Origin: Filosporella fistucella
Taxonomy: Eukaryota > Ascomycota > Leotiomycetes > Helotiales
NCBI GenBank assembly: GCA_030077755.1
Contig: JAQJZZ010000008.1
Coordinates: forward strand, 2,914,001-2,978,000
Reading direction: 5' to 3'
Length of the DNA stretch: 64,000 nucleotides
In this document: piece by piece, positions 50,240 to 54,350 of the stretch
How the letters are laid out: each line of letters begins with the position of its first letter
Position numbering within the stretch: the stretch's first letter is position 1
Notes under the pieces: generated by a model
The model's input: the letters and a program-made list of their open reading frames with translations, nothing else
What the model was told of the DNA's origin: nothing
Databases searched by the model: none
Program-made: the position numbers and the translations under genes

Positions 50240-51493
50240 TCATACGGAACCAGACTCTCTTAGTCTCATCTCTTTGAGCAGTTTCATATCCTCCTCACTC
50301 ACTGGCACTCCTTCCACCTTCTTGACTCTCTTGCCTTCCTTAAAGATAACCCATCCGGCAGCAGATGCAACAATGCAGGCAAGCGAGATAAACAAGCCGA
50401 CACTCCAACTTGGTCGATCATATTTGTTGAAACCCCACATCAAGCCATTTAGGACGATCTGCAGAAGCGTGTTCCATACGAATCCCCAAATAACAAAGTC
50501 CAGCTTCCAGTATTTGGATGGAGAGGCTCGCTCACCGGTCAGAGGTGCATCGGGGGAGAGGCTGATAGGGAGAGCAAGTACAGATTCACTGACTCCTTCC
50601 GGAATAGGATCATCCTTTGGGTGATATTTAACGTCAATATGCTGCGAGCCCTCAAGACGGAACCAAGCTTGGTGGATGCCGGCCAGTCTTCTCAACGAGC
50701 TCTCGTCCTTGCCAAATCTCCACTTCAACAGATAGTAAAAGTCTCTAAACCGCCATGGAATTAAGCCCAGACCAGTGACATTAAACAATGCGTTCAGGAT
50801 CTGAGAATCAATCTCGAGCCATTTCTTGGCCCCACTGTCCCAAGAATTATAGCTTGGATGTGCCATCGCTGGTGTCGCACGGATAAGAATCAGGAAGAGC
50901 ATACCGCCCCACGCCACAATATTGAGCGCGTAGATAGTGAGTAAGAATCCAAATGGTGTAATAACAAATTTGCAGAAGCTCCTAAGCGCAATTGTGGTGG
51001 CTTGCCACTTGGTATGTTTGGGTGGAAATTGGTAGCCATTCGGGTACGGTTCTGAAGGGTCGTGGGGTGTTACAACAGTTATCTCCTCTGTCTGTGCCGT
51101 GAGAATGCTTTCGATTTGATCTCCTTTCTTCTTTTCGTTAATGACTTCGATCTTCTTTGGTTCCGCAATGGTTTCCATGGTTTTTTGTCGATATAATTGC
51201 ATGACATCAGCATCTGAATCGCGATGCGCTTGACTGTTACGTCTCTGACCAGGACCAGACCATCCGTCAGGATCAAACTTGCCAACTTGTATATCGTTCA
51301 GGGTAGGAATATTTGAGCCAACAGATCCAAATGCATGGAACATCCCGACCGGCGGCCTGGACTGAGTGAAAGTCTCCTGTGCATTGCGCATCAACTTTGC
51401 TGCTTTCGATGGTTCTTTCGATTTGTTCGTTTCAGACGGCGATAAAGAAGATAGAGCGGGATCTATCCCATCTGAGGGAGGCTGGCGCGACAT
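50240..51493 (-). CDS. DUF2985-family integral membrane protein
   Basis: This single exon encodes 417 residues. The first ~160 are polar and cytosolic (Ser/Lys/Glu-rich). A first membrane block (FVITPFGFLLTIYALNIVAW, then GGMLFLILI) is followed by WLEIDSQILNALFNVTGLGL and IPWRFRDFYYLLKWRFGK, the conserved core of DUF2985. Two more membrane segments lie near residues 335-390 (LDFVIWGFVWNTLLQIVLNG and VGLFISLACIVASAAGWVIF). The charged tail is KRVKKVEGVPVSEEDMKLLK. The family is widespread in filamentous fungi; its function is not established. The Cys-rich segment found in some homologues is replaced here by AHPSYNSWDSG. Confidence 0.85.
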   Translation of the reverse strand: MSRQPPSDGIDPALSSLSPSETNKSKEPSKAAKLMRNAQETFTQSRPPVGMFHAFGSVGSNIPTLNDIQVGKFDPDGWSGPGQRRNSQAHRDSDADVMQLYRQKTMETIAEPKKIEVINEKKKGDQIESILTAQTEEITVVTPHDPSEPYPNGYQFPPKHTKWQATTIALRSFCKFVITPFGFLLTIYALNIVAWGGMLFLILIRATPAMAHPSYNSWDSGAKKWLEIDSQILNALFNVTGLGLIPWRFRDFYYLLKWRFGKDESSLRRLAGIHQAWFRLEGSQHIDVKYHPKDDPIPEGVSESVLALPISLSPDAPLTGERASPSKYWKLDFVIWGFVWNTLLQIVLNGLMWGFNKYDRPSWSVGLFISLACIVASAAGWVIFKEGKRVKKVEGVPVSEEDMKLLKEMRLRESGSV

Positions 51494-54066: not shown

Positions 54067-54323
54067 AAAAAAATTGGTAGCTTCTCTTTGATTGAGCGTG
54101 CTATAATCTATTAGTATAATGCGAATTAATTGGGTCTTGGGTTGAAATTACTCATCCTTAGTGCTTTTTTCTCAGTTAGTTTCCGTAATTTGGTTGGTTT
54201 TGAATAGGAGGTCATACCAGGGGCCATGCTAATCTTCTCTGTATCGTTTCAAATTGACTAAATTGGTGTTAGTAGTGTTACCGTTAGACCAAGTGGACCA
54301 ACTTACCCAAATGCCTTGCGGCG
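54067..54323 (-). ncRNA. U6 spliceosomal snRNA with three introns
   Basis: On the minus strand, four exons reconstruct a U6 of about 103 nt. They are ~54323-54307, 54257-54218 (40 nt), 54163-54152 (12 nt) and 54100-54067. Exon 1 holds a short GCC-GCAA-GGC hairpin and CATTTGG. Exon 2 holds GAAACGATACAGAGAAGATT and AGCATGGCCCCTG, that is, the ACAGAGA box and AGC triad. Exon 3 is CACTAAGGATGA. Exon 4 starts CACGCTCAATCAAAGAGAAG and ends in seven T, a Pol III terminator. Intron 1 is 49 nt (GTAAGT, branch ACTAACA, TTTAG), intron 2 is 54 nt (GTATGA, branch ACTAACT, AAAAG) and intron 3 is 51 nt (GTAATT, branch TACTAAT, TTATAG). Exons agree with U6 of other fungi with no gap. The 5' end is set from TATA spacing. 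Confidence 0.9.
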
Positions 54324-54344
54324 AGGAGATTTGCACTGTTAGGG

Positions 54345-54350
54345 TATATA
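54345..54350 (-). promoter_or_regulatory. TATA box of U6
   Basis: TATATA on the minus strand lies 22-27 nt before the inferred transcript start. This is the spacing expected for a Pol III U6 promoter with an external TATA. Confidence 0.65.

Follow-up and report, generated by a model that had tools for sequence, protein, structure and literature searches.

A putative U6 snRNA gene split by three spliceosomal introns, and candidate introns in the U2 and U5 genes of the same ascomycete genome

Introns in U6 snRNA genes are already known from fission yeast and other fungi, as a preliminary description of the present DNA had pointed out. We agree with this for Schizosaccharomyces pombe, in which a spliceosomal intron in the RNA polymerase III transcript of U6 is established, according to the available excerpt of the source (PMC8917221). 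The S. pombe U6 gene has one intron (Tani and Ohshima 1989), while the U6 gene described here has three. Going by its cited title, the study of Canzler, Stadler and Hertel (2016) holds that U6 introns were gained many times in fungi, and an excerpt of another source mentions a reesei U6 promoter 'with 1st intron' (PMC9518982). A survey, of which an excerpt is likewise available, reports missing the S. pombe U6 because the gene is split by its intron (PMC10581693). Intron-split snRNAs evade standard covariance searches, and are probably under-counted. Beyond U6, an mRNA-type intron has been reported in the U2 gene of Rhodotorula hasegawae (Takahashi et al. 1993, by its title as cited in PMC2586383), and fungal U3 snoRNA genes contain canonical short introns, with split and intronless copies occurring together in some genomes (PMC5832005, excerpt). 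Intron-bearing U3 is likewise a structured small RNA gene, but its role is in rRNA processing and not in the machine that removes introns.

Taken alone, the three-intron U6 is a further example of a known fungal phenomenon; apparently split U2 and U5 genes, a 6-nt exon and divergent paralogues in the same genome add more. R. hasegawae has introns in U1, U5 and U6 as well. It is a basidiomycete with an intron-bearing U2, whereas the fungus studied here is an ascomycete, for which two introns apiece are proposed in two U2 genes, and the present genome further differs in its proposed 6-nt U2 exon, in the three U1 genes found without an intron, and in its divergent intronless paralogues. Among the matches listed, which covered few subscription papers, no report of an ascomycete U2 or U5 with introns was found. 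The abstract by Canzler and co-workers reportedly does not treat U2 or U5.

The window, i.e. the whole 64-kb stretch of DNA that was analysed, is part of a 45.77-Mb assembly of 19 contigs. On its minus strand, positions 54322-54067 contain a U6 gene cut by three GT-AG introns, with the following features.

54345..54350, minus strand: TATATA box, whose start lies 28 nt upstream of the predicted U6 5' end; putative Pol III promoter element
54307..54322, minus strand: U6 exon 1, 16 nt; 5' stem-loop GCC-GCAA-GGC followed by CATTTGG; 5' end predicted
54258..54306, minus strand: U6 intron 1, 49 nt; GTAAGT...ACTAAC...TTTAG
54218..54257, minus strand: U6 exon 2, 40 nt; ACAGAGA box, AGC triad and 5' strand of the internal stem-loop
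54164..54217, minus strand: U6 intron 2, 54 nt; GTATGA...ACTAAC...AAAAAAG; found with all three references
54152..54163, minus strand: U6 exon 3, 12 nt; sequence CACTAAGGATGA
54101..54151, minus strand: U6 intron 3, 51 nt; GTAATT...TACTAAT...TATAG
54067..54100, minus strand: U6 exon 4, 34 nt; U2-pairing region CAAAGAGAAGCU; T7 run at the 3' end

Intron 2 interrupts what we take to be the apical loop of the U6 internal stem-loop, and intron 3 presumably its 3' strand. The Rfam U6 model (RF00026) matched the unspliced sequence at 54282-54184 (minus strand) with 46.7 bits, at a gathering score of 44, and this was the sole match at gathering score in the 64-kb window. In the alignment, only the exon-2 part of the match is a good U6, and the flanks of the match cross intron sequence. 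The joined exons give a canonical U6 of ~102 nt from the predicted 5' end to the T7 run, in which the CATTTGG of exon 1 is joined to TCAATTTGAAAC, as in S. cerevisiae U6. When the joined exons were searched against the genome, this locus alone was returned, in three pieces. All three introns contain CTAAC or CTAAT, the end of which lies 9-11 nt from the 3' splice site; introns 2 and 3 each have an earlier AG within a few bases of the branch site, and its use would leave 7 extra bases in the product. The preliminary description had proposed three introns with branch sites in each, a 12-nt internal exon, an exon 2 carrying the ACAGAGA box and the AGC triad, and joined exons matching U6. The spliced alignment to yeast U6, the GT-AG ends and branch-site spacing of the introns (49, 54 and 51 nt) and the placement of the small exon at 54163-54152 bear out all of these. 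Its product length of ~103 nt and gene edge at 54323 compare with ~102 nt and 54322 here, given the predicted 5' end, and the strand, which it did not name, is the minus strand.

The splicing model was evaluated by spliced alignment, in which GT-AG introns of 40-90 nt were permitted, against trimmed S. pombe and S. cerevisiae U6 sequences, taken as approximate references. As a control, the exon-2 core was held fixed and the remaining sequence was shuffled base by base. Against S. pombe U6 the score was 92 spliced and 62 unspliced, and none of 200 shuffles scored as high (best 78); against S. cerevisiae U6 the corresponding scores were 59 and 35, again with 0/200 shuffles as high (best 54). A 25-mer search of GTDB contigs for U6 yielded one stretch (L026, 104.9 bits), an uninterrupted U6 which was taken as a more distant reference. 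With L026 as reference, introns 2 and 3 were recovered at unchanged coordinates and raised the score from 53 to 73, but 12 of 150 shuffles scored as high. A 17-mer search of IMG/VR gave five stretches, none of them a U6 at gathering score. The branch-site spacing is only mildly informative: across the window, 26 candidate introns had a spacing of 7-11 nt, where ~16 were expected from 10 simulated sequences.

The TATATA box at -28 and the T7 end would suit transcription by Pol III, and the longest T run inside the U6 precursor is 3, so that no early Pol III stop is expected. The U6 genes of S. cerevisiae and S. pombe have a B box, which in Schizosaccharomyces reportedly lies within the U6 intron, whereas no B box (GGTTCGANTCC, up to two mismatches) was found from -400 to ~+820 around the U6 gene of the window. 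The joined U6 is complementary to the canonical U4 of the genome (L014, -19.2 kcal/mol) and, in helix II, to both canonical U2 genes (L017 and L019, -13.4 kcal/mol); these and all other pairing energies between snRNAs given here were obtained without shuffled controls. From the sequence we infer, with high confidence, that the locus is a functional canonical U6 gene of a member of the Helotiales that is transcribed and whose three introns are spliced out to give a 102-nt U6. RNA polymerase III would produce a precursor of ~256 nt, from the TATA box to the T7 terminator, and the spliceosome of the cell would excise the three introns of ~50 nt, with the splice sites paired across each intron. 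U6 already present in snRNPs would supply the splicing of each new U6 precursor, and the circularity of a U6 that needs the spliceosome would therefore be harmless. In fungi whose introns are of this size, splice-site pairing is usually considered to occur across the intron. This makes the 12-nt exon, which itself stands, less puzzling than the preliminary description suggested when it asked how so small an exon is defined.

We then compared the other spliceosomal snRNAs in a census in which the best candidates were scored and genes were read as uninterrupted, and which could thus miss further split copies. U1 gave three uninterrupted matches that are nearly identical over most of their length (46.1-49.6 bits, Rfam cut-off 69.5), and U4 gave two, L014 (100.4 bits) and L015 (87.7 bits), besides an extra 16.4-bit match of no weight. 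None of these three U1 genes and two U4 genes has an intron. U2 matches of 89.7-94.9 bits comprise L017 and L019, ~5.5 kb apart on contig C9, and L018 on C12. The two canonical U2 genes, L017 and L019, appear to carry two introns each, and the U5 gene one. L017 would have one intron of 55 nt after GATCAAGTGTAGT and a second of 54 nt after CAGTTT. In L019 (C9, ~1781.8-1782.1 kb, minus strand) two proposed introns, 48 and 51 nt long, leave between them an exon of 6 nt, TGTAGT, which is presumably the branch-site-recognising segment of U2. Such an exon would be an extreme test of the splicing of tiny exons, and of the reliance of the cell on accurate splicing for splicing itself. Aligned to the intronless U2b (L018) of the same genome, splicing raised the score of L017 from 31 to 43 and that of L019 from 11 to 35, with 0/200 shuffles as high in either case. 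The second intron of L017 lies outside the U2b reference, and is proposed on its signals and on the gapless alignment of the joined sequence to L019. The only U5 found, L021 (C3:1141879-1142038), falls with 38.5 bits slightly short of the cut-off of 40. In it a candidate GT-AG intron of 50 nt immediately precedes the loop-1 sequence GCCTTTTAC, proposed on its signals and on a 50-base insert in the alignment to the Rfam model, in which 59 bases take the place of 9. All five proposed U2 and U5 introns have GT-AG ends and a CTRAY motif ending 10-11 nt before the 3' end. With those of U6 they make eight proposed introns, all 48-55 nt long and alike in branch spacing.

The genome also encodes intronless paralogues of three snRNAs: U6b (L002, C6:601060-601162, which is L002:1501-1603), U2b (L018, C12:1074718-1074913) and U4b (L015, C16:963231-963382). 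We read them as divergent variants. Their contigs measure 2.2-2.6 Mb, so that they are not small contaminants; C16, the contig of U4b, also carries Prp8.

These paralogues, together with the alignments above, bear on how the U6 locus is to be read. The genome Rfam search returned two U6 loci, that of the window and U6b, the latter at 44.0 bits and thus exactly at the cut-off. The preliminary description would regard the split locus as a pseudogene if an intact intronless U6 elsewhere in the genome went together with an absence of spliced RNA from it; an intronless copy does exist, but it is very divergent, and the canonical copy is that of the window. We consider it very unlikely that the window locus is dead or unspliced and that U6b supplies the U6 of the cell. 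U6b is uninterrupted, has a TATATA 30 nt upstream, contains ACAGAGAAGATTAGCAT exactly (a pattern search listed 10 places, 2 exact and 8 with one mismatch), and can pair with canonical U4 (-15.2 kcal/mol) and, more weakly, with canonical U2 (-7.9 and -8.4 kcal/mol). However, it pairs less well than the window U6 with both U2 and U4. In comparison with the spliced window U6, U6b matches in 31 of 32 core columns but in only 35 of the 71 others (Fisher p ~1e-6, with the core chosen after seeing the alignment); the canonical sequence is that of the window exons, all four of which are kept exact, which would be unexpected for a dead copy. U6b ends in T4, where the window U6 has T7, and its 5' arm folds onto its own core, pairing with AGAAGAUUA at -8.2 kcal/mol, a value reached by 14 of 5000 shuffled arms. 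The matching 5'-arm pieces give -1.9 kcal/mol in the window U6, -1.0 in L026 and -6.1 in the S. cerevisiae U6 reference; because the S. cerevisiae piece also folds to this extent, the self-fold of U6b is unusual yet no proof of inactivity. U6b could be decaying. It strikes us as extremely unlikely that the U6 works but has fewer than three introns, one of the three being a GT-AG stretch that arose by chance in a locally odd copy. No single reference recovered three introns at once, since the S. pombe reference returned introns 2 and 3 and the S. cerevisiae reference introns 1 and 2. Combined, however, the references back all three, and intron 2 was recovered with every reference. The introns moreover all contain a branch-site motif at the customary distance, and joining the exons re-creates at every junction a stretch that is uninterrupted in a yeast U6.

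The existence of a divergent intronless paralogue for each of U2, U4 and U6 also raises the idea of a second spliceosome, in which U2b, U4b and U6b would have co-evolved and which would exist alongside the canonical set split by introns. U2b and U4b lack an upstream element that is common to six other snRNA genes (see below), although they keep the 3' element. Such a spliceosome is nevertheless highly improbable, as the pairing of U2b, like that of U6b, is stronger with the canonical partner than between the two. Helix II between U2b and U6b is the weakest pairing of its kind (-3.5 kcal/mol, versus -7.8 to -13.4 elsewhere), and stem II between U4b and U6b is the weakest of four (-13.3 versus -15.2 to -19.2 kcal/mol). 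The U6-binding domain of Prp8 was found at one locus only in the genome. A second U5 was not found: a loop-1 pattern search allowing one mismatch gave 11 matches, versus 16 for the reversed control, and Rfam listed no U5 at E <= 1 for those 11 loci and one more.

Two further considerations on U6b were set aside. Its internal stem-loop energies (-4.2 without the bulged U, -1.2 with it) were dropped as evidence, as the same method gives +1.8 for the canonical fold of the window U6. An assignment of U6b to U6atac was not supported, U6 being the only family listed at E <= 0.01 when the best of each clan was kept. The best U12 match in the genome scored 22.1 bits, at a cut-off of 53.

Returning to the reading of the window locus as a functional, intron-split U6 gene, its introns form part of a wider distribution. 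The eight proposed introns occupy seven distinct positions, i.e. three in U6, three in U2 (one of which is common to both genes) and one in U5, and none in the U1 or U4 genes found. Given the lengths of these RNAs (~402 nt for U2, U5 and U6 together, 287 nt for U1 and U4), the chance of such a distribution is ~0.02, a value calculated after the fact with positions treated as independent. The catalytic spliceosome consists of U2, U5 and U6, while U1 and U4 leave earlier. Tani and Ohshima are said to have put forward the idea that introns enter snRNAs by reverse splicing. Seven proposed positions in U2, U5 and U6 and none in the U1 and U4 genes found are what such an entry, in the spliceosome at its catalytic stage, would predict, a fit that we regard as suggestive only. 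The U1 intron of R. hasegawae would count against a strict rule of catalytic RNAs only. On the reverse-splicing reading, the proposed introns would sit only in RNAs present at catalysis, at or near nucleotides in contact with the substrate or forming the active site, and would spare U1 and U4. We consider it unlikely, though worth stating, that the introns entered by reverse splicing in the working spliceosome and that U2b, U4b and U6b were kept as functional variants which serve with the ordinary set and which would sustain or restart splicing when the split genes are left unspliced.

The snRNA genes share flanking elements. The sequence TTTGCTCTGTTTG, chosen by eye, stands at -113 to -125, with at most one mismatch, upstream of six genes, namely the three U1 genes (L022, L023 and L024), the two canonical U2 genes (L017 and L019) and U4a (L014). 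It may correspond, in fungi, to the snRNA proximal element, and is absent upstream of U2b, U4b and U5. A 3' element, composed of a TTTTCATTG-like sequence, a short hairpin (identified by eye) and a GAAGAAG-like sequence, follows the Pol II snRNA genes except U5, including U2b and U4b (L014, L015, L017, L018, L019, L022, L023 and L024), and is also present at L020; it may be a 3'-end processing signal. L020 (C14:2109414-2109522) resembles a degenerate U2 3' half (25 bits, below the cut-off) with an Sm-like site. It was considered as another intron-bearing U2 and rejected, as no U2 5' domain was found in 3.1 kb, and is possibly a pseudogene or a different small RNA. In the window, a reverse copy of TTTGCTCTGTTTG with two mismatches lies at 54330-54342, between the TATA box and U6 exon 1, and may be due to chance.

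Some other observations were made alongside. L026:2255-2359 is a full eukaryote-type U6 (104.9 bits) on a contig filed as a Verrucomicrobiaceae MAG, which suggests that this contig is eukaryotic contamination. The sole 5.8S rRNA match reported in the genome, L025 (C9:2686920-2687044, 64 bits), departs from normal 5.8S, and the assembly appears to lack regular rDNA. A search for the METTL16 family gave matches at one locus on C15, one piece of which contains two in-frame stops. The protein encoded at 50240-51493 of the window is 73% identical to a protein of Mollisia scopiformis, whose genus belongs to the Helotiales (Leotiomycetes), and 74% identical to a protein of Cadophora gregata.
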